Virus record (IMG/VR): IMGVR_UViG_3300010885_001736
Location: 1 to 34,314 of that record
Length of the DNA: 34,314 nt
Strand: one strand, 5' to 3'
Source of the DNA: a virus
Position 1 is the first letter of the stretch; every line of letters begins with the position of its first letter. Under the pieces are notes generated by a model. That model saw only the letters and a program-made list of their open reading frames with translations, was not told the origin of the DNA and did no database searches. The translations under genes were made by a program, and so were the position numbers. Of the stretch, positions 1,636 through 11,481 are shown piece after piece.

Positions 1636-1768
1636 TTTGTTTCTCCAATTCGGCTAACCAATGATTGCAGTCCTGAAGCGCACCGTTAATCATGTGCAGC
1701 TGGACTTCCAGTTGTTTGCCCTGAGTCATCAAGGTTTCAATTTGTTTGTTGATTGCTTCTTTATTCAT
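1598..1768 (-). CDS. 56-residue coiled-coil protein of unknown function
   Basis: The start at 1768 is chosen because it forms an ATGA overlap with the stop of the GroES-like gene; a longer frame upstream exists but has no such support. The product (MNKEAINKQIETLMTQGKQL...) is almost wholly amphipathic helix with heptad-like spacing over residues 4-40, followed by an acidic Pro-containing tail. No family is recognised. It sits between the co-chaperonin and the DUF6496-like gene in the terminase-proximal part of the late unit. Confidence 0.7.
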   Translation of the reverse strand: MNKEAINKQIETLMTQGKQLEVQLHMINGALQDCNHWLAELEKQNAPEEISQPESV

Positions 1769-2052
1769 GATTCTTCCATTACGAAACATACATCTTGCCA
1801 ACTCATTTTGAGTAAGCGCTCGTCATTGTGCTTGATTTCCTCAAACTTCAGATATTCGTCTTTGTAGTCTTTGCCGAATGTGCCAAAAGTGATGAAGTCA
1901 CCAACGTTTAGGCCCTCTGCTTGGGCTTCTGGGCCTACTGCAACCACAGTCCCACGGCTGTCAGCTTCTGCTGATTGGTAATAAACAATGTCGCTTAAAT
2001 TGCGCTTTTCAGGGCGAACTAGGATTTTGTCTCTCAATGGCTGCAAGTTCAT
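1765..2052 (-). CDS. GroES-like co-chaperonin
   Basis: A 95-residue Cpn10 homologue. The N-terminus LQPLRDKILVRPE and the hairpin RGTVVAVGP (residues 33-41) followed by VGDFITFG are the GroES beta-barrel signature. The mobile-loop position (residues 16-32) carries IVY at 22-24, where bacterial GroES has the IVL tripeptide that docks on GroEL. The expected role is to replace or modify host GroES as the lid on host GroEL during folding of phage proteins, as T4 gp31 does for its coat; P22 coat folding is known to involve GroEL/GroES. ATGA overlaps couple it to both neighbours. The host-replacement role is inference. Confidence 0.88.
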   Translation of the reverse strand: MNLQPLRDKILVRPEKRNLSDIVYYQSAEADSRGTVVAVGPEAQAEGLNVGDFITFGTFGKDYKDEYLKFEEIKHNDERLLKMSWQDVCFVMEES

Positions 2053-2261: not shown

Positions 2262-2458
2262 CGTGACTTTGCCTCACTAGCCAAAACTGCTTTGTTTAAT
2301 CCAGCAGCCAGGCGCTCGGCAAAACCTTTGTTCTCTAAATCAAAAGTTCGGGCCTCTTTGTAATCAGAGAACTTTTCCTGATGTGCCTCGGTAGATGGCA
2401 TCGGAGATTCTCTCCTTGCCGCCAATGCCGCTGCTTCTAACTCGCTCAAGTGTGTCAT
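2258..2458 (-). CDS. 66-residue hypothetical protein overlapping the kinase gene
   Basis: The start at 2458 is preferred because AGGAGG lies just upstream; a second ATG at 2479 with its own GAGGAG would add seven residues. The 5' part overlaps the 3' end of the zeta-type kinase gene by 95 bp in another frame, so both proteins use the same DNA there. The product is Ala- and Glu-rich and predicted helical. It does not resemble the epsilon antitoxin or another known antitoxin, although its position beside a toxin-like kinase makes that worth testing. Confidence 0.62.
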   Translation of the reverse strand: MTHLSELEAAALAARRESPMPSTEAHQEKFSDYKEARTFDLENKGFAERLAAGLNKAVLASEAKSR

Positions 2459-3245
2459 GTAACCTCCTACGAACTTCATTCTCCTCTAGTTTAGGTAGCT
2501 TGTCAAGCTGGCTTGCAATAGCCTTACCTTTTCCTTTGGAGTTATCGACAATTTGAATGTTTACCCTGGGATTGTCTTTGTACTTCTCTTTAAGTTCTTC
2601 AATGACTTTGCGTGCGCCAATATGAGTCTTTAGGTGTTCCTCAATTGGGACGGTGCGGCCAGAACCTTTTTCTTTTTCCATGCGGCTGGCTCGGCTCAAT
2701 GCGCCAAACTCCAGCGCTTCAGCTGGGTCACGGTATGTGTAAACAATACGAACCTTGCGCTTGGCATCTAGGGCCTGTTTGATCTTTTTGTCGGCAGATT
2801 CAAACTTGTTCATGTTGGTGTCGTAGATCATTTCCGACCGTCTAAGGGCTGGATCGACAGATTCCAACAAATCCAAAGCTGTTGTTTTACCAGCACCAGT
2901 ACCGCCAGCGCTAAAGACAACGGTGTTATCCATGCCTTTGGGTGTGGGGTTTGCCAGCTTTTCCGCATACAGCTGCTTCATAAAAGCGCTTGATGGCTCA
3001 TGAACGTCTGCTGACTTTGTGCGGTCTGCTCGGTATTCAGGGGACATTTCCCTGGCAACGTCTGTGTTGATAATGCGGCCACCCTTGGATTCAGGGTGTG
3101 CTGCATATTCCTGAATCAACTCAGGATAGGATTGAGCCAGGCGCTGAAAATAGGCCTGTTCAATAGGGTTTGCAGGGGCAACCGCTTGCGCCCTTGCAGG
3201 GGCTGGCTGTCCCATCCCCATCAATGAGGATAGCTGGACAGCCAT
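2364..3245 (-). CDS. Zeta-toxin-like P-loop kinase
   Basis: A 293-residue protein with a strong Walker A (GGTGAGKTT, residues 114-122) and zeta-family features: INTDVAREMSPEY (59-71) with a downstream VHEPSS, YDTNMN (141-146), an Arg-rich segment with RDPAEA (172-177), GRTVP (196-200) and DNS (234-236). Zeta kinases phosphorylate UDP-N-acetylglucosamine or related substrates and can block cell-wall synthesis. The NTD and VHEPSS block lies before the P-loop here, whereas I know it after the P-loop in canonical zeta proteins. Residues 1-50 are an Ala/Pro-rich leader. It is second in the late unit, 3 bp after the previous gene. Whether it is a toxin or a packaged enzyme is unknown. Confidence 0.72.
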   Translation of the reverse strand: MAVQLSSLMGMGQPAPARAQAVAPANPIEQAYFQRLAQSYPELIQEYAAHPESKGGRIINTDVAREMSPEYRADRTKSADVHEPSSAFMKQLYAEKLANPTPKGMDNTVVFSAGGTGAGKTTALDLLESVDPALRRSEMIYDTNMNKFESADKKIKQALDAKRKVRIVYTYRDPAEALEFGALSRASRMEKEKGSGRTVPIEEHLKTHIGARKVIEELKEKYKDNPRVNIQIVDNSKGKGKAIASQLDKLPKLEENEVRRRLHDTLERVRSSGIGGKERISDAIYRGTSGKVL

Positions 3246-4058: not shown

Positions 4059-4176
4059 ATTCTTTGGTGTAAAACTTGTGGTTGTTCTCACATTGGCGTT
4101 TGCGGCTAACAAATTCTGGGTTTGACCTGGTATCCAAAACTTTGAGGGTTTCAGAGCCGCAGCGGGGACACATCAT
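3946..4176 (-). CDS. Zinc-ribbon protein with an NrdR-like N-terminus
   Basis: A 76-residue product starting at the first of two adjacent ATGs (4176), in ATGA overlap with ninB and preceded by AAGGAA. Residues 2-40 give CPRCGSETLKVLDTR, then RKRQCENNHKFYTKEY, the four-Cys-like zinc ribbon of the N-terminus of NrdR, although the fourth ligand looks replaced (CENNH). The ATP-cone of NrdR is absent, so it is not a complete NrdR. The last 113 bp overlap the YbcO-like gene in another frame, and this C-terminus may carry no function. Confidence 0.68.
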   Translation of the reverse strand: MMCPRCGSETLKVLDTRSNPEFVSRKRQCENNHKFYTKEYAISQAQICEKPEAAEVSGGSFLSKLWHGQWRPSGSQ

Positions 4177-4574
4177 GTTTCTATTCCTTTTTCTGTCATC
4201 CAGGCCAAAAGCCATTCAATAAACTCTGAGCCTTCTTCTTTTGTAAATTTGTGGCTTTGGAGGCCAAGCTGAACAACACGCTCACCGTCCAGACTTGGGG
4301 CAACCTTGCCGATCTTGCGGCCAGTCTCATGCGCCCATTGGTCAATCAATAGGCGTTTCCAATCGTCAGCTGTCCAGGTAGAACCCACGGCCTTCATGCT
4401 TTTTGCAACCTGGTCAATCAGGCTGTGAAACATGGCGTTTTGATCTGTGCTTCGGCTGGCCTTTTTGATTTCCAGGCGCAGCTGCTTTCCAGCTTGCAGA
4501 TTTTCTTTGATCTTGGGCCATAAGTCTTTCAGCACCGCATGGCCTTGTTGTGCATTGTGCAGCGTGACAATCAT
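4173..4574 (-). CDS. ninB: NinB-family recombination protein
   Basis: A 133-residue homologue of lambda NinB (Orf), a mediator that helps annealing proteins load on SSB-coated single strands. The diagnostic core is KKASRSTDQNAMFHSLIDQV near residues 37-56, followed by WKRLLIDQW and a C-terminal EFIEWLLAW helix. The start is taken as the ATG at 4574, which overlaps the stop of the small membrane-protein gene (ATGA); a TTG at 4610 would extend it by 12 residues. Its partners in this genome would be the ERF annealing protein and the SSB-like protein of the rightward unit. Confidence 0.85.
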   Translation of the reverse strand: MIVTLHNAQQGHAVLKDLWPKIKENLQAGKQLRLEIKKASRSTDQNAMFHSLIDQVAKSMKAVGSTWTADDWKRLLIDQWAHETGRKIGKVAPSLDGERVVQLGLQSHKFTKEEGSEFIEWLLAWMTEKGIET

Positions 4575-4660
4575 GGTTTGATCCACAGAAACCAAGCCAT
4601 CAATGCCCAATGTGCGATCAGTAAGCCAACAAGCAATAAATAAACAACTTTGTTGCTCAT
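4571..4660 (-). CDS. 29-residue single-pass membrane peptide
   Basis: An ATG at 4660 opens a 30-codon frame whose start and stop both form ATGA overlaps, with the glutaredoxin gene upstream and ninB downstream. The product is nearly all hydrophobic after a Ser-Asn-Lys start (VVYLLLVGLLIAHWALMAWF) and ends WIKP, so one transmembrane helix is expected with the N-terminus probably inside. The double overlap is good evidence that it is translated. The function is unknown. Confidence 0.7.
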   Translation of the reverse strand: MSNKVVYLLLVGLLIAHWALMAWFLWIKP

Positions 4661-4893
4661 ACGCCCTCCAGCTGCTTTAGCGCTGCTTGGAGGCCAGCCA
4701 AACCGCCAACCCTTTGGTCATCAATGATAATCTGAGGCATTCCACGCACGCCTGGATAAGCAAACTCAAACGCAAATCTAACTTTTTCATTGCTGAAATC
4801 AAGTTCAACAAAACGCAGCCCCTTTTCTTTCATCAGCTTTTTTGCTGTGACGCAGTTTGGGCAGCCTGATTTTGTGTAAATAAAGATATTCAT
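4657..4893 (-). CDS. Glutaredoxin
   Basis: A 78-residue thioredoxin-fold protein with the dithiol site CPNC (residues 11-14) after a first strand MNIFIYTKSG, the cis-proline segment GMPQIIIDD near 51-59, and GGLAGL in the GSH-binding turn. Phage glutaredoxins supply electrons to ribonucleotide reductase; this genome shows no such reductase, so it would act on the host enzyme or in another redox role. Coupled by ATGA to rusA upstream and the small membrane peptide downstream. Confidence 0.9.
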   Translation of the reverse strand: MNIFIYTKSGCPNCVTAKKLMKEKGLRFVELDFSNEKVRFAFEFAYPGVRGMPQIIIDDQRVGGLAGLQAALKQLEGV

Positions 4894-5309
4894 ATTTGCC
4901 TCACCAAAACCTCAACCTTGGCAGTCTCGCCATAAACCTTCGTGGCGTGAATTGACGTTATTTGCGCATCCGATAAAAAGACAATTTTGTCCATGCCATC
5001 ACAAATTGCTTTGACCACGTTGTCCAGGTCAGGCTTTTTTGTGTGTTGTTCAAAACCTTTTAAACAGGCCTCTGTGCGTTTTTTTGTGTAAGACGCTGGA
5101 ACGGAAAAGGTAACGTAGATATAAGCCTCTAGAGGCCCTTCTAGGGCTTCTGACGCACCCATTGCCGCTTTTGCCATCATTGCAACCTCAGATTCATAGG
5201 TTTTTGTCTTTTGTGGCGTGTAGGCAACGGGAAATTTCCCCCTGGTTGAAAACCTCGGTCTGCCTTTGGCTACTGGCTCACCGTAAACCGTGAACATTAT
5301 TGAGATCAT
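4890..5309 (-). CDS. rusA: RusA-family Holliday junction resolvase
   Basis: A 139-residue endonuclease that cuts four-way DNA junctions and so trims recombination and replication intermediates before packaging. The N-terminus has the family hairpin GEPVAKGRPRFS, and the active-site block KKPDLDNVVKAICDGM supplies Asp94, Asp96 and Lys100; Asp114 in FLSDAQI is the third acidic residue. These correspond to D70, D72, K76 and D91 of E. coli RusA. The length fits the family. ATGA overlaps at both ends place it in the early leftward unit with ninB and the YbcO-like nuclease. Confidence 0.93.
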   Translation of the reverse strand: MISIMFTVYGEPVAKGRPRFSTRGKFPVAYTPQKTKTYESEVAMMAKAAMGASEALEGPLEAYIYVTFSVPASYTKKRTEACLKGFEQHTKKPDLDNVVKAICDGMDKIVFLSDAQITSIHATKVYGETAKVEVLVRQI

Positions 5310-5575
5310 TTTTTGTCTTTCTGTTCGTTCATGCGTCTGCGCAAATCGTCAGCAGCTGCCTGGCCTCGCCTCTTGGCAATGTCTGCCAGAGTTTGCTGCC
5401 ACCAGTATTGCGCTTCCCCTCTGCCCTCCTCCAGCGCTTTCTTGCGATAACGTCTGATCCATTCCAGGGCTTCGGTGTGCCTCATAGTCTCCTGTAAGTT
5501 CAAGCGCTCTAAGGATGACAAACTCGCTAAATTGCTGGCCTTCTTTGGCTCGATCAAGGATTGCTGTTGCTTCAT
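5306..5575 (-). CDS. Hypothetical protein, basic helical C-terminus
   Basis: An 89-residue frame with ATGA overlaps at both ends. Only its second half looks conserved: EALEWIRRYRKKALEEG, then WWQQTLADIAKRRG and DDLRRRMN, a pattern I associate with small proteins of phage replication blocks. The first 29 residues are Ser/Leu/Lys-rich and less protein-like. An internal ATG at 5486 with AGGAG just upstream would give a 59-residue product containing only the conserved part. See the overlapping frame starting at 5585. Confidence 0.6.
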   Translation of the reverse strand: MKQQQSLIEPKKASNLASLSSLERLNLQETMRHTEALEWIRRYRKKALEEGRGEAQYWWQQTLADIAKRRGQAAADDLRRRMNEQKDKK

Positions 5576-5585
5576 GGTGCGTCAT
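5349..5585 (-). CDS. Overlapping frame with a protein-like N-terminus
   Basis: This 78-residue frame starts with the ATG at 5585, 14 bp before the end of the upstream gene. Residues 1-38 (THHEATAILDRAKEGQQF, then LRALELTGDYEA) read like a genuine small phage protein, while the remainder (SQESAGGGQRGSA...) reads like an out-of-frame tail. The neighbour in the +1 frame shows the opposite pattern. Either two genes overlap, or one ancestral gene was split by a frameshift near 5490. Confidence 0.4.
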   Translation of the reverse strand: MTHHEATAILDRAKEGQQFSEFVILRALELTGDYEAHRSPGMDQTLSQESAGGGQRGSAILVAANSGRHCQEARPGSC

Positions 5586-5973
5586 TTTGCGTAATTCTTT
5601 TTTTTAATTCTGCCAATCTAGCCAATGCTTCTGATCTGATTCTGTCGCTTTCAATTTGTTCATGAATTGTTTTCTTACGCTCAATCAAAACTTCAGTTGG
5701 CGGTTTGACAGGAATCGATGGGCCTTGGTTGCACATATCCCGAAAAGCCAAAGCGCTGGGGGGAAAGTCTTTGTCAAGTTTGTCAAGCGCAAAATCTAAA
5801 CTTGGTTTGTATGTCAAGAATTTGCCTAAGCATCGTTTCCATGTTTCACGCACTAGCGTTGGGTCAACATCTTGCCAATGAGTGATAAACCGTGAACCGT
5901 AAATGGCGTTCATCATTCCAAAAATGTAATCAAAGCCTGAGTCGGCATCACAAAAGTCGTTTTCGTTCCACAT
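5572..5973 (-). CDS. Replication protein P-like helicase loader (candidate)
   Basis: A 133-residue protein with the plan of the lambda P group found next to phage initiators: an N-terminal helical region with MNAIYGSRFITHWQDVD, then VRETWKRCLGKFLTYKP, then FPPSALAFRDMCNQG. P-type proteins bring the host DnaB helicase to the phage origin. It lies directly downstream of the initiator gene with a 26-bp overlap, the lambda O-P order. The C-terminal 45 residues are charged coiled coil. It is shorter than lambda P, and the family call rests on pattern and position. Confidence 0.6.
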   Translation of the reverse strand: MWNENDFCDADSGFDYIFGMMNAIYGSRFITHWQDVDPTLVRETWKRCLGKFLTYKPSLDFALDKLDKDFPPSALAFRDMCNQGPSIPVKPPTEVLIERKKTIHEQIESDRIRSEALARLAELKKRITQNDAP

Positions 5974-6661
5974 TTTCAGCCTCCAAAATTACAGTCTCAG
6001 GTTTAGCCCAAAATGGCGTTTGAGGGATTGATTTGCCCCTGGTCAATTCAGCCATGACGTTTTGACGTTCCTCCGAACGGGTCAATTTTTCTTTAACCCA
6101 AGCAGCTTTAAATGTTTGCCAATTCCTTACAACAATTTCATTCAATGCTTCCTCCAGCGTCCAGCCAGCTAACTTTGCTTGTCCAACAATGGCATCCATT
6201 ACCCGTTCAGTAATTTGCGCTCGCCTGGCCTTTCTTTGTTTAACAAAAGAATTCCAAACTTCAAGAGAAACGCCTTCAGGCGGTTTTGCCTCTTTCTTTG
6301 TCTCTTTCTCTTTCTCTCCCTCTGTCTCTCTCTCTGTCTCTGGGATAGCAACTTGATAGCTATCTGCTAGCATATCACTAGCAACAACAAAAAAACCGTT
6401 TGAAATCAACGGTTGTAATCCTTGTTGGTAATCTTTTTCTGAAATATGCAGCCTGAACACTAGCTCATCTAATGAGCCATCAAAGACACCGTCTTTTGAT
6501 TCACTTGCTAGCAACCAAAGCATTGGTGCAAGCGCCTTGCTAGCAATTGGCAAGCGCATAAATGATCTGTCGTTTAACAAATCACGATGAAGTTTTATCC
6601 AAGGGGGGCAGCGATCTTTGTAATGTTGAAAGACGCCCCAATTTTTGGGCTTTAAAAGCAT
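5948..6661 (-). CDS. Phage replication initiator (O-like)
   Basis: The start at 6661 has GAGGAA upstream, giving 237 residues. The N-terminal domain (WGVFQHYKDRCPPWIKLHRD, then SFMRLPIASKALAPMLWLLA and an ELVFRLHISEKDY stretch) looks like the winged-helix DNA-binding half of phage initiators. A very charged Glu/Lys/Thr linker (about residues 108-128) precedes a C-terminal domain (LEVWNSFVKQRKARRAQ...) that would contact the helicase loader or DnaB. This layout, with the origin-like repeats inside the gene and the loader gene behind it, matches lambda O. It is the second gene of the early leftward unit, after the Cro-like gene. Confidence 0.75.
   Translation of the reverse strand: MLLKPKNWGVFQHYKDRCPPWIKLHRDLLNDRSFMRLPIASKALAPMLWLLASESKDGVFDGSLDELVFRLHISEKDYQQGLQPLISNGFFVVASDMLADSYQVAIPETERETEGEKEKETKKEAKPPEGVSLEVWNSFVKQRKARRAQITERVMDAIVGQAKLAGWTLEEALNEIVVRNWQTFKAAWVKEKLTRSEERQNVMAELTRGKSIPQTPFWAKPETVILEAENVERKRLL
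6293..6546. other. Candidate replication origin inside the initiator gene
   Basis: Two exact palindromes TTGCTAGCAA lie at 6505-6514 and 6537-6546, with related copies TGCTAGCA at 6365-6372 and ACTAGCAA at 6377-6384. Next to them a roughly 55-base strand-asymmetric tract (about 6293-6345) is nearly pure pyrimidine on the plus strand. Lambda ori has the same plan: iterons and a purine-biased tract within gene O. The repeats also encode plausible initiator residues, so function is not proven. Confidence 0.45.
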
Positions 6662-6766
6662 AATTTTTCCTCGCACAGTCCTCCACTAAAAGAAACAATC
6701 GGCAGGCGGGGAGGCTCGCTTTTCGATGGGGAGATCAAGCCCTATCTAGCCGTGTTTCAAAATATC

Positions 6767-6925
6767 TTAACCGATAAACCAATCAGGCCGCAACGCTTTT
6801 AACTGCCACACCCTAGCCTGGGGAACTTTGTCACCCCATTGGCTTATCGCTGCCCTGGTTATCCCCAGCAGCTGTGCCAGGTCTTTGGCAGAACCAGCGT
6901 TTTTTATAGCTTGCAATTTATCCAT
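6767..6925 (-). CDS. Cro-like helix-turn-helix repressor
   Basis: A 52-residue gene beginning at the ATG at 6925. Residues 13-33 (AKDLAQLLGITRAAISQWGD) form a clear helix-turn-helix with the Cro/CI hallmark 'AxLLGITxxAISQW', followed by KVPQARVWQLKAL, as in small Cro proteins of the P22 type. The protein would bind the 14-bp operators at 6935, 6974, 7010 and 8187. Its ATG falls where the leftward transcript should begin, so translation is probably leaderless, as for lambda cI from PRM. It opens the early leftward unit and so would control its own expression. No second, CI-like repressor was found. Confidence 0.85.
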   Translation of the reverse strand: MDKLQAIKNAGSAKDLAQLLGITRAAISQWGDKVPQARVWQLKALRPDWFIG

Positions 6926-6931
6926 ATTTGC

Positions 6932-6960
6932 ATATTAAGCCAACTTACTCAAACAGTCAA
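6932..6960 (-). promoter_or_regulatory. Leftward early promoter (PL-like)
   Basis: On the minus strand TTGACT (6960-6955), a 17-bp spacer and TAATAT (6937-6932). The -10 is overlapped by an operator. Only six bases separate the -10 from the ATG of the Cro-like gene, so the start of transcription is predicted at that A. It would drive the repressor, replication and ninB-rusA genes. Confidence 0.82.
6935..6948. promoter_or_regulatory. Operator 1 (at PL)
   Basis: TTAAGCCAACTTAC, matching the two-fold symmetric consensus TTAAGC-NN-GCTTAA in 12 of 14 positions counting the free centre. It covers part of the PL -10, so a bound repressor would block leftward transcription and make the Cro-like gene self-regulating. 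Confidence 0.7.
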
Positions 6961-6973
6961 TTACCCGACAAAT

Positions 6974-6987
6974 TTAAGTGGGCTTTA
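6974..6987. promoter_or_regulatory. Operator 2 (between the promoters)
   Basis: TTAAGTGGGCTTTA, a 12 of 14 match to the same consensus. It lies between the two -35 boxes, 39 bp from operator 1 and 36 bp from operator 3 (start to start), a spacing that would allow cooperative binding or bridging on one side of the helix. Confidence 0.6.
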
Positions 6988-6997
6988 CAAATACCAT

Positions 6998-7026
6998 TTG
7001 ACACGATAGTTAAGCTGGCTTAATAT
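6998..7026 (+). promoter_or_regulatory. Rightward early promoter (PR-like)
   Basis: TTGACA (6998-7003), 17-bp spacer, TAATAT (7021-7026). The predicted start is A7033, the first base of ATG CCC TGA. It drives the rightward unit beginning with the LPD29 gene at 7072, whose AAGGAG lies at 7058-7063. Confidence 0.85.
7010..7023. promoter_or_regulatory. Operator 3 (at PR)
   Basis: TTAAGCTGGCTTAA, a perfect inverted repeat with a two-base centre. It runs from the spacer into the PR -10, the mirror image of operator 1 on PL. It is the most symmetric copy and probably the strongest site. Confidence 0.78.
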
Positions 7027-7035
7027 TCACCCATG

Positions 7036-7051
7036 CCCTGACGTTTCGGGG
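7036..7051 (+). promoter_or_regulatory. 5'-terminal mRNA hairpin of the rightward unit
   Basis: CCCTGA, loop CGTT, TCGGGG (one G-U pair) starts three bases from the predicted mRNA 5' end and is repeated with a different loop at 8213. The stem is conserved and the loop is not, which supports an RNA function such as protection of the 5' end. It contains the CCC TGA of the two-codon frame. Confidence 0.6.
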
Positions 7052-7071
7052 TCTTTTAAGGAGAAATCAAA

Positions 7072-7617
7072 ATGGCTAATCAATATCTTTCTTGCGCTGA
7101 AACTGCAAAATTAGTTCGTGCTGCTCTCAGAGAATCTTTCCCTGGCGTAAAGTTTTCTGTTCGCTCTAGCGTGTACAGCGGAGGCGCTTCAATTACCGTT
7201 GGTTACGTCAACGGCCCAACATCAGAAGCTGTCAAAAACGTTGTGGCAATGTTCGAGGGCGCTTACTTTGACGGGATGACCGATTACCAGGGTTACAACT
7301 ACAACAGCCTGGACGGTGTTGAAACCAGCTTCGGTGCTAACTACATTTTCGTCAATCGTGAAATGACCTTGGACGTCATGCAAGCAGCTGTGCAAGAGGC
7401 TTGCCAATACTACGGTTTGCAAGTGCCAGCTGTCAAAGACGGTTACCGTGGCGCTTACATTGCGGACTTCATGGATTACAACAACGAAAGACGCATTATG
7501 GATCGTGTCGCTGCTACCAGTTTCTGTGAGACACAACCCAGCCCCACCTTGGCCCGTGTCGCTTTCTTAGGCGATGACGGTTACGGCTTCAATTCTGTTG
7601 GACGCCTGGCAGCTTAA
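7072..7617 (+). CDS. LPD29-domain protein
   Basis: A 181-residue first product of the rightward early unit. Residues 3-75 (QYLSCAETAKLVRAALRESF, then FSVRSSVYSGGASITVGYV and GAYFDGMTDYQGY) match the large polyvalent protein-associated domain 29, seen both alone and in giant multi-domain phage and plasmid proteins; its biochemical role is not known. The C-terminal half (about 95-181) is less conserved, with Tyr/Asn-rich segments and a GDDGYGFNS motif. The first position after PR suggests an early host-takeover role, which is inference. Confidence 0.75.
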   Translation: MANQYLSCAETAKLVRAALRESFPGVKFSVRSSVYSGGASITVGYVNGPTSEAVKNVVAMFEGAYFDGMTDYQGYNYNSLDGVETSFGANYIFVNREMTLDVMQAAVQEACQYYGLQVPAVKDGYRGAYIADFMDYNNERRIMDRVAATSFCETQPSPTLARVAFLGDDGYGFNSVGRLAA

Positions 7618-8177: not shown

Positions 8178-8203
8178 TTGATTTGGTTAAGCTGGCTTAT
8201 AAT
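8178..8203 (+). promoter_or_regulatory. Second operator-controlled rightward promoter
   Basis: A consensus TATAAT (8198-8203) inside sequence nearly identical to PR. The -35 is poor: TTGATT at 8178 gives only a 14-bp spacer, and the 17-bp position reads TAGTTG. The predicted start A8210 again opens ATG CCC TGA. It would transcribe the small genes from 8248 onward, probably less strongly than PR. Confidence 0.62.
8187..8200. promoter_or_regulatory. Operator 4 (on the second rightward promoter)
   Basis: TTAAGCTGGCTTAT, one base different from operator 3 and placed in the same way against the -10. It puts the internal promoter under the same repressor as PL and PR. Confidence 0.68.
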
Positions 8204-8212
8204 TCAACCATG

Positions 8213-8229
8213 CCCTGAACTTCTCGGGG
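8213..8229 (+). promoter_or_regulatory. 5'-terminal hairpin, second copy
   Basis: CCCTGA, loop ACTTC, TCGGGG: the same stem as at 7036-7051 with a different loop, at the same distance from the predicted mRNA start. It is followed by TTTAGGAAATC and the ATG at 8248. Confidence 0.58.
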
Positions 8230-8247
8230 TCTATTTAGGAAATCAAA

Positions 8248-8508
8248 ATGACAAACGCAACACAAATCAATCGCAACGTTTCAATGTATGGCTTTGCAGA
8301 TATTGACGCTTACATTGAATCAGTCAAAGAATCCATCACTTACCAATTAACTGGCGGCAACATGGTTGTGGCTGGCCTTATGTCTGACGCTCAAGAGTTG
8401 ATGACATTGGACACAGATCGTGCCAGACAAACTCTGAACATTGCCAAAATCATTCTGTTCATGATTGCAGATGGTGAATTAGTTGGCACACAGCCCTCAC
8501 GCATTTAA
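8248..8508 (+). CDS. 86-residue hypothetical protein
   Basis: First gene after the second rightward promoter, with TAGGAA upstream. Mostly helical product: YGFADIDAYIESVKESI, then NMVVAGLMSDAQELM, then ARQTLNIAKIILFMIADG. The last stretch is hydrophobic but short for a membrane helix. No family recognised. Confidence 0.7.
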   Translation: MTNATQINRNVSMYGFADIDAYIESVKESITYQLTGGNMVVAGLMSDAQELMTLDTDRARQTLNIAKIILFMIADGELVGTQPSRI

Positions 8509-9227: not shown

Positions 9228-9418
9228 ACGCAGATTACATCATCACGCAAGTGGCCCAGCAAGCAGCCACGATCTACGAAAACCAAGACCCACGGGATCG
9301 CCTGGCTTTTCAAGTCGGAATGCTGCAAGGCAAAATCCGCAACCTTTGCTATTTGATCAACGTCACTTCAGATCAACTCAAACAAATCCAATTAGAACTC
9401 ACAAAGGAACAAGCATGA
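9224..9418 (+). CDS. 64-residue helical protein upstream of the annealing protein
   Basis: ATGA overlaps at both ends place it firmly in the recombination block. The product (MNADYIITQVAQQAATIYEN, then FQVGMLQGKIRNLCYLINV) is helical with a C-terminal coiled-coil segment. It is not similar to a known family in my reading. Coupling to the ERF gene suggests joint expression. Confidence 0.72.
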   Translation: MNADYIITQVAQQAATIYENQDPRDRLAFQVGMLQGKIRNLCYLINVTSDQLKQIQLELTKEQA

Positions 9419-9972
9419 AAAACCTAGCCACAGCATTGGTCAAAGCACAAAAGGCCTTTGGGCCAGCTTTAAAGACCTCTACAAACCCGCATTTTCGCTC
9501 ACGCTATGCAGACCTATCCGCTTGCGTTGAGGCCGTTATAGACGCTTTAAACGACAACGGCATTGCCCTCATTCAGAAGAACTATGACTGCGCCAACGGT
9601 GTGATGATCGAAACCATGTTCATCCACGAATCTGGCGAAATGTTGGAATGCGGCATTCTCCATGTGCCAGCCAACAAACAAGATGCCCAGGGTTACGGCA
9701 GCGCTTTGACGTATGCCAGGCGTTACAGCTTGATGGCCGCTTGCGGTATTGCACCAGAGGACGATGACGGGAATGTCGCCAGTCGTAAAACAGTTATTGA
9801 AAAGACAGTCAATGAAAGCGCCCTGGTAGATCACTTGGCAGCTATTGAGGCATCTACTGACCAGGAAAGTCTGAAAGCAGCTTACAAGGCCGCCTATGCA
9901 GCTTGCAATGGTGATGCAGACTGGCAGAAGAAAGTTATTGCAGCCAAAGACAAAGTAAAGGCCAAACTATGA
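9415..9972 (+). CDS. erf: ERF-family single-strand annealing protein
   Basis: A 185-residue recombinase that anneals complementary single strands, the partner of the exonuclease encoded further on. The ERF signature is visible: LVKAQKAFGPALKTSTNPHF, RSRYADLSACVEAVIDALN, then GYGSALTYARRYSLMAACGI and an acidic EDDDGN. The P22 Erf protein is the founding member and circularises P22 DNA after infection. The C-terminal 45 residues are a helical tail. Start at 9415 in ATGA overlap. It can act with the NinB-like mediator. Confidence 0.92.
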   Translation: MKNLATALVKAQKAFGPALKTSTNPHFRSRYADLSACVEAVIDALNDNGIALIQKNYDCANGVMIETMFIHESGEMLECGILHVPANKQDAQGYGSALTYARRYSLMAACGIAPEDDDGNVASRKTVIEKTVNESALVDHLAAIEASTDQESLKAAYKAAYAACNGDADWQKKVIAAKDKVKAKL

Positions 9973-10235
9973 ACACGCCAGCTTGCCCCAAAGGGTTGAT
10001 TGAATTTGAATGCGAACTGGAGGGCGTTGACTTGGTGTGTTTCTTGGAATACACGCCTTTTGAAAGTGGCTCACTTGATGAACGTGGCTTACCTAATGAG
10101 CCTGACGTTCAAGAAAGTATGGAACTGGTCAACGCTTACGTCAAAAATACTGATGTAGATATTGCCCATTTACTGCTGCAATATTTAGTCGATCACATTA
10201 CCGAAACAGCACTTGAGGACTTTAAAAATGATTGA
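9969..10235 (+). CDS. 88-residue acidic hypothetical protein
   Basis: ATGA overlap with erf and an 8-bp overlap with the exonuclease gene. The product is acidic (FECELEGVDLVCFLEYTPFE, then ending ETALEDFKND) and probably mixed alpha/beta. No family recognised. Lying between the annealing protein and its exonuclease suggests an accessory role in recombination, but nothing in the sequence proves it. Confidence 0.7.
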   Translation: MNTPACPKGLIEFECELEGVDLVCFLEYTPFESGSLDERGLPNEPDVQESMELVNAYVKNTDVDIAHLLLQYLVDHITETALEDFKND

Positions 10236-10854
10236 AATGATGGAACAAGGGACAGACGCCTGGTTTGAGGCCCGTATTGGTAAGGTCACGGCCTCCCGTG
10301 TGGCTGACGTTATCGCCAAGACCAAAACGGGTTATTCAACCAGTCGGGACAATTACATGGCGCAGCTGGTGTGCGAACGCCTGACCAAACAAAAAGCAGA
10401 GGGATTTACCAACGCTGCCATGCAACACGGCACAGAGACAGAACCGCTTGCCAGGCTGTCTTATGAAGTCGCTCAGAACGTTTTAGTCGATGAAGTGGGG
10501 TTTGTGCCTCACCCATCAATTGAAATGGCTGGTGCGTCCCCTGACGGTCTTGTGGGCGATGATGGGCTGCTGGAAATCAAATGCCCCAACACGGCCACGC
10601 ACATTGAGACTTTGCTCAGTCAAACTGTGCCAGGCAAATACAACACCCAGATGCAATTCCAGATGGCTTGCACAGGGCGTAAGTGGTGCGATTTTGTCAG
10701 CTTTGACAATCGCCTACCCCACGAACTTCAATTGTTTGTGAAACGTGTCCCACGGGATGACGTTTTCATCAAACAAATAGAAGCCGAAATTGTCCAATTC
10801 TTAGCCGAACTGGATGACAAAATCACCAAACTCATGAAAGTCAAGAATGTCTAA
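10228..10854 (+). CDS. YqaJ-family (lambda exonuclease-like) recombination exonuclease
   Basis: A 208-residue nuclease that would resect double-strand ends to expose 3' strands for the ERF protein. The PD-(D/E)XK core is clear: ARIGKVTASRVADVI near the N-terminus, MQHGTETEPLAR at 65-76, then ASPDGLVGDDGLLEIKCPN with Asp106, Glu116 and Lys118 as catalytic residues, followed by MQFQMACTG. The start at 10228 gives MIEMMEQGTDAWFEAR, the typical beginning ('QGTxxWxxAR'). It overlaps the next gene by 8 bp. Confidence 0.93.
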   Translation: MIEMMEQGTDAWFEARIGKVTASRVADVIAKTKTGYSTSRDNYMAQLVCERLTKQKAEGFTNAAMQHGTETEPLARLSYEVAQNVLVDEVGFVPHPSIEMAGASPDGLVGDDGLLEIKCPNTATHIETLLSQTVPGKYNTQMQFQMACTGRKWCDFVSFDNRLPHELQLFVKRVPRDDVFIKQIEAEIVQFLAELDDKITKLMKVKNV

Positions 10855-11154: not shown

Positions 11155-11481
11155 ATGGACTATAAAGACGCATTTAAGAAAATTTTTGCCATGCCAGACT
11201 TCCCAAGAGTCAGGGCCAACGATCCAATCACCTCATTTGAGGCAGCAGAGTCGATCAAAGATTCTGTCTCCCAGCATCACCAGGTCATTTTGGAATGTCT
11301 CCAAACACATGGCCCTCTGGGTAAAGACGGGATTTCAGCGCACACCGACCTGGACAGCAACCAGGTTGCCAGGCGCTTAAACGAAATGAAAGTAATTGGT
11401 TTGATTGAACTGACTGGCAACAAAGTCAAATCAAATTCAGGACGCAACGAAAGAGAATGGCAATGTATCCAATCGGCCTAA
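11155..11481 (+). CDS. Winged-helix DNA-binding protein
   Basis: A 108-residue protein. RANDPITSFEAAESIKD leads into a winged helix: HHQVILECLQTHGPLGKDGI (helix 1), HTDLDSNQVARRLNEMKVIG (helices 2-3), then LIELTGNKVKSNSGRNEREW (wing). The 'DPxTSxxAAE' opening and this fold are typical of small phage regulators or accessory replication proteins. It is a possible regulator of late expression, since it is expressed near the end of the early rightward unit, but no target site is known. Confidence 0.7.
   Translation: MDYKDAFKKIFAMPDFPRVRANDPITSFEAAESIKDSVSQHHQVILECLQTHGPLGKDGISAHTDLDSNQVARRLNEMKVIGLIELTGNKVKSNSGRNEREWQCIQSA

Follow-up and report, generated by a model that had tools for sequence, protein, structure and literature searches.

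A P22-type early control region with Cro and clustered operators but no recognisable CI gene in an uncultivated freshwater phage

Genes, promoters and operators at the locus

We analysed a 34,314-nucleotide window, the full stretch of IMG/VR record IMGVR_UViG_3300010885_001736, which comes from an uncultivated freshwater virus that infects bacteria. A 123-bp direct repeat terminates the record, which is therefore probably complete. The window carries genes for a P22-type coat (phrog_283) and portal (phrog_156), and no near DNA match to it was found among the phage records searched. Its early genes lie on either side of a 146-bp intergenic region, and the features of this part of the genome are as follows.

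4173..5973, (-), remaining leftward early operon: helicase-loader-like ORF (weak match), RusA and NinB
5948..6661, (-), O-like replication gene, after cro in its operon (phrog_26426, E 2e-31)
6680..6756, (-), structured RNA between cro and the O-like gene, related to Rfam int-alpA, with a probable pseudoknot
6767..6925, (-), cro, encoding a 52-aa repressor of the P22_Cro family (Pfam PF14549)
6932..6960, (-), cro promoter (lambda/P22 PR equivalent): TTGACT (6960), 17 bp, TAATAT (ends 6932)
6935..6948, unstranded, cro-side operator overlapping the cro -10 box: TTAAGCCAACTTAC, one mismatch
6974..6987, unstranded, central operator between the two -35 boxes: TTAAGTGGGCTTTA, one mismatch
6998..7026, (+), rightward early promoter (lambda/P22 PL equivalent): TTGACA (6998), 17 bp, TAATAT (7021-7026)
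7010..7023, unstranded, rightward operator overlapping the rightward -10 box: TTAAGCTGGCTTAA, perfect
7035..7052, (+), 5' leader hairpin, followed by TCTTTTAA and then the ribosome-binding site
7072..7617, (+), LPD29 domain protein, first rightward early gene (PF18847, E 4e-22)
8187..8200, unstranded, fourth operator, in the second rightward promoter: TTAAGCTGGCTTAT, one mismatch
8198-8203, (+), -10 box (TATAAT) of the second rightward promoter, overlapped by the fourth operator
8212..8230, (+), duplicate of the leader hairpin, preceding ORF 8248-8508
9346..10854, (+), Erf annealing protein and exonuclease (recombination), as in the lambda/P22 PL operon

The O-like gene, whose start was set at the ATG seen in relatives, also matches phrog_678 ('replication initiation O-like', E 4e-16), and small ORFs accompany the LPD29 protein, Erf and the exonuclease among the rightward early genes. 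The leftward region also holds genes for a GroES-like co-chaperonin and a glutaredoxin, at 1765-2052 (-) and 4657-4893 (-). A zeta-toxin-like kinase ORF lies near the packaging genes (2364-3245, (-); PF06414, E 4e-14), with no partner antitoxin recognised.

Both divergent promoters are sigma70-like and near consensus, and they were found where a reading of the sequence alone (hereafter the sequence-only reading) had placed a PL/PR pair; the rightward one is conserved in relatives. Across the window, consensus promoters are not above chance (12 observed against 21.7 expected from shuffling). The gene content reverses the labels of that pair. The lambda/P22 PR operon resembles the leftward set here in content and the PL operon the rightward set, and the promoter formerly called PL is thus the functional PR, because it drives the cro-O-P side.

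The two outer operators (6935 and 7010) occupy the same place in each promoter, running into the -10 box. Three 14-bp operators had been proposed before, and their positions, the -10 overlaps and the third site between the promoters all hold, but the strict form TTAAGC-NN-GCTTAA that had been given for them is exact only at 7010, with two mismatches at both 6935 and 6974. We replaced it by TTAAG-N4-CTTAA, the P22-type form backed by the family comparison. When a single mismatch is tolerated, about 1.05 sites are expected per simulated genome of the same dinucleotide make-up, and 1000 simulations gave no cluster of three within 100 bp. A loose pattern allowing two mismatches gave three-site clusters in 12 of 300 simulations and is weak as a lone test. 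The fourth operator with its promoter, the predicted leaderless start of cro and the structured RNA behind cro had gone unmentioned in the sequence-only reading.

The 52-residue protein is Cro-like, as had been proposed, and belongs with P22_Cro both by Pfam profile (PF14549, E 2.2e-12, 47 bits against a curated cut-off of 30.2) and by fold. Its AlphaFold2 model (pLDDT 91) has the five helices of the all-alpha Cro fold. The top three Foldseek matches are N15 and P22 Cro (probability 1.00, E 0.05-0.07), the best folds being N15 Cro 6on0 and P22 Cro 1rzs (34% identity, rmsd 1.0 over 44 columns); 1rzs is also the nearest solved sequence. We infer that this Cro acts at the P22-type operators near the early promoters. 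The sequence-only reading named it as the only DNA-binding candidate next to the operators; elsewhere, an ORF that closes the rightward early operon (11155-11481, (+)) has winged-helix matches below cut-off (phrog_1123, MarR-like) and is a possible second regulator.

Conservation of the layout and change of operators with Cro

Queries with Cro, the O-like protein and the LPD29 protein found 19, 80 and 80 viral loci, respectively. A search of related phages for conserved operators had been suggested with the sequence-only reading, and we found the three-operator layout (cro-side, central, then rightward operator on the -10 box) in about 50 distinct cro-LPD29 regions. The arrangement had been called unusual; it is not singular, being conserved across a large environmental phage group, and Pantoea phage PdC23, an isolate, shows a parallel arrangement. 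The central operator lies 36 bp from the rightward one (22 bp in some) in most relatives, and three (L138, L156 and L164) are without a convincing central site. Most family members have a central operator that matches less well than the rightward one. For the cro-side operator the match is worse than for its rightward counterpart in 42 of 49 members, as good in 6 and better in 1; L132, L151, L137 and L177, where the type of site is different or unclear, were omitted from this comparison. The unit of promoter, operator, hairpin and leader is repeated at further genes, the hairpin-TCTTTT-leader part having an operator just upstream in 107 of 118 distinct plus-strand start-codon places, and second modules with operators also occur in relatives. 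At one locus, L143, cro, upstream of the LPD29 gene, reads broken (two ORFs with an internal TAG) and the operators are kept.

The operators differ where the recognition helix of Cro differs, which ties Cro to the sites. Helices such as TRAAISQW and TRQAISQW go with AAG-N4-CTT sites. L132 and L151, with the helix KQSVVSNW, have instead three exact copies of TCACANNTGTGA (TCACA-N2-TGTGA) at -156, -68 and +826, which fall at the promoters of cro and LPD29 and at a downstream unit, and no AAG site. L162 and L179, with SPPAVCVW, likewise have no AAG site, and their LPD29 promoter and the DNA adjoining cro carry TTAAC-N4-GTTAA; the third member of this group, L163, has the same sites and one AAG-type match far off, at +1552. 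These changes represent two lineages and hence few independent events, with several sites altered together in each. With its many Cro/operator pairs, two clear changes of specificity among them, the family is suited to working out rules of protein-DNA recognition, and the interest of the locus rests on these co-changing pairs and on the RNA behind cro.

The spacing of the cro start is conserved too. The cro ATG lies exactly 6 nt past the -10 hexamer in 51 of 52 interpretable relatives, with varying bases in between, and 7 nt past it in L137; this count omits L162, L163, L179 and L143, and the operators of the first three were read separately. A 6-nt spacing would put the +1 at or next to the A of the ATG, and we predict that the cro mRNA is leaderless. 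The cI mRNA of lambda is an example of a leaderless repressor mRNA. A measured precedent is phage PY54, in which both the cro and cI mRNAs are leaderless (PMC4488713).

Lysogeny functions, known phages and a proposed timer

Profile searches of 29 family records gave P22_Cro in 26 and no integrase (PF00589), Peptidase_S24 or above-cut-off HTH_3 protein in any. The window record was likewise negative for all three, in agreement with the earlier statement that it has no integrase and no second repressor, and the 146-bp intergenic region holds no cI/c2-type gene or CI-like remnant; a CI-like protein lying outside the profiles used could be missed. With the opposing repressor absent, the term 'switch' that had been applied to the locus does not hold in its bistable sense. 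Among the proteins scanned we recognised no partition or maintenance gene, and the flanking LPD29 marker gave no copy in this context in bacterial genomes, in a search of limited sensitivity for chromosomal copies that returned 14 loci, the four inspected (L189, L190, L191 and L193) being without a Cro match. These results lend no support to the non-integrated persistence that had been suggested.

Temperate relatives do carry the missing functions. The two distant ones searched alongside the family (records G029 and G030; L018 and L020, Cro identity 43-45%) both carry an integrase (PF00589) together with a CI-type gene adjoining cro, and L020 has TTAAG-N4-CTTAA sites upstream of cro in its cI-cro region. 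Xanthomonas phage PBR31 shares the P22-like coat (56% identity), portal, GroES and terminase module with the window; its integrase, excisionase and c repressor are annotated and it is presumably temperate (PMC10975493). Since L018, L020 and PBR31 carry integrase and repressor, these comparisons make it plausible that a temperate ancestor lost its lysogeny module. The GroES gene is found in MW202520 as well as in PBR31. Rhodoferax phage P26218, a relative by coat, was set aside as a comparison, its early region being different with no cro annotated.

Salmonella phage P22 is alike in Cro family and fold, in its TTAAG-N4-CTTAA half-sites and in having cro followed by an O-like replication gene, and its annotated OR/OL region shows the same half-site (TTAAGTCATCTTAA, TTAAGACTTCTTAA and TTAAGTGTTCTTTA), including exact TTAAG-N4-CTTAA. 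P22 differs in having an antiterminator (gene 24), c1, PRM and, separating its operator groups, c2, whereas the present locus lacks a repressor gene and its operators fit within 90 bp. The bistable switch of lambda and P22 matches the locus in operators that overlap divergent early promoters, but not in a cI/c2 gene divergent from cro or in integration functions. The isolated Certevirus PdC23 has a Cro-like regulator, an O-like DUF4373 protein and P on one side and Erf on the other, with divergent early genes, and integrase and S24 repressor were not found in it. It differs in that its Cro is 49% identical over 45 aa, no TTAAG-N4-CTTAA cluster was seen, and its cro seems to be preceded by a leader that includes a ribosome-binding site. 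In the immB regions of the telomere phages PY54, N15 and phiKO2, an all-alpha Cro is present in N15, and N15 and phiKO2 have three operators (PMC4997575); all three phages, in contrast, have a prophage repressor, and in PY54 and phiKO2 the sole site bound by Cro is OR3, upstream of the repressor gene, whereas here an operator overlaps cro's own promoter.

We conclude that the locus is a Cro-only variant of the known lambda/P22 system, real and well conserved. Our preferred reading, to which we give a probability of roughly 0.85, is a P22-type immunity region without c2/cI in which Cro would be a one-way negative-feedback timer of lytic growth rather than part of a lysis/lysogeny choice; the lack of CI, PRM and integrase points to a timer of this kind. 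The reading is built on what can be seen in the DNA: the sites, the promoter geometry, the Cro family, the conservation, the Cro/operator co-change, and no recognisable CI or integrase. The left and right operators would stand back to back within about 90 bp, with the c2/cI gene missing between them. On infection, host sigma70 RNA polymerase would fire both near-consensus promoters. Leftward transcription would begin with cro, on an mRNA predicted to be leaderless, and continue through the O- and P-like replication genes to RusA and NinB, and the rightward promoter, aided by the second one at 8187, would yield the LPD29 protein and the recombination genes. We infer that accumulating Cro binds the TTAAG-N4-CTTAA operators on the -10 boxes and represses the early promoters, the rightward ones probably first and its own last, because the cro-side operator is the poorer match. 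The earlier suggestion that the locus times early expression is supported as a reading of this kind.

Cro might instead be a dual regulator, which at low levels would sit mainly on the central operator and raise one promoter and at high levels would repress both. In favour are the position of the central site, upstream of both -35 boxes, and its conserved distance of 36 or 22 bp from the rightward operator in most relatives, yet its weaker match in most members, the three relatives without a convincing copy and the annotation of P22 Cro as turning off early genes make such a role unlikely. The central operator may nevertheless serve activation or cooperativity. Less probable again is a life-style switch, with abundant Cro or a second regulator that went unrecognised silencing the early operons and allowing unintegrated persistence (pseudolysogeny or a plasmid-like state). 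Cro would control every early promoter found, that of replication included, the winged-helix ORF could be the second regulator, and there is the zeta-toxin-like ORF; but a silent state is not self-sustaining with a lone autorepressor, partition, integrase and CI-type families were not found, and the LPD29 marker gave no chromosomal copy. That the operators are a functionless inheritance from a temperate ancestor is suggested by PBR31, the closest named isolate by coat protein, being presumably temperate with integrase and c repressor (PMC10975493). We consider this highly improbable, since the sites, their spacing and cro persist in diverged relatives, and the sites vary along with the specificity of Cro and have reached additional promoters.

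On the timer reading, natural genomes show what remains when the lambda/P22 switch is without its lysogeny half, namely Cro and its operators. The two are kept and diversify together, which argues that Cro is valuable in lytic growth alone.

RNA elements behind cro and in the rightward leaders

The RNA between cro and the O-like gene scores 33.2 bits against the Rfam family int-alpA (RF02996), whose gathering score is 35.8; relatives L176 (44.3 bits), L143, L118 and L016 lie above gathering, and a match (E up to 0.1) was found in 25 of 29 family records. The RNA, probably pseudoknotted, is conserved at this place in L016, L115, L118, L121, L139, L143, L176 and others. Among 30 sequences, one pair of the outer stem is seen as C-G, A-U, U-A and G-C, and two inner stems covary. 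The probable pseudoknot, formed by the second hairpin loop with the downstream strand, has a mean of 5.8 pairs against 4.6 when partners are swapped (maximum of 300 swaps, 5.0), a comparison of related sequences and hence not a formal probability. This RNA does not lie between integrase and alpA genes here, no integrase being present; it lies where nutR lies in lambda and P22. Our guess is that it acts in cis on the downstream replication gene. It also provides a new covarying sequence set, in a defined regulatory place, for an orphan Rfam family.

On the rightward side, a leader of hairpin and GGTCTTTTAA (boxA-like) stands just before the ribosome-binding site at 7035-7062 and 8212-8240 (+). 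Such leaders are repeated at several early genes across the family and are placed like lambda nutL. The folding energy of the hairpin at 7035..7052 (-9.6 kcal/mol, z -1.1) is unexceptional against shuffles. One 52-residue repressor and cis-acting RNA could conceivably run the whole early programme, the int-alpA-like RNA in the nutR place and the hairpin/boxA-like leader in the nutL place replacing N/nut, an idea that we put forward as speculation and regard as rather doubtful. If true, it would mean that antitermination or translational control needs no phage protein of its own, with Cro at the repeated operators timing the promoters. In seven relatives (L101, L103, L104, L119, L122, L137 and L171) another conserved block (..GTATAATCC..CCCCGCAG..GTGTGGTCTTG..) lies directly behind cro and is possibly a further RNA type.
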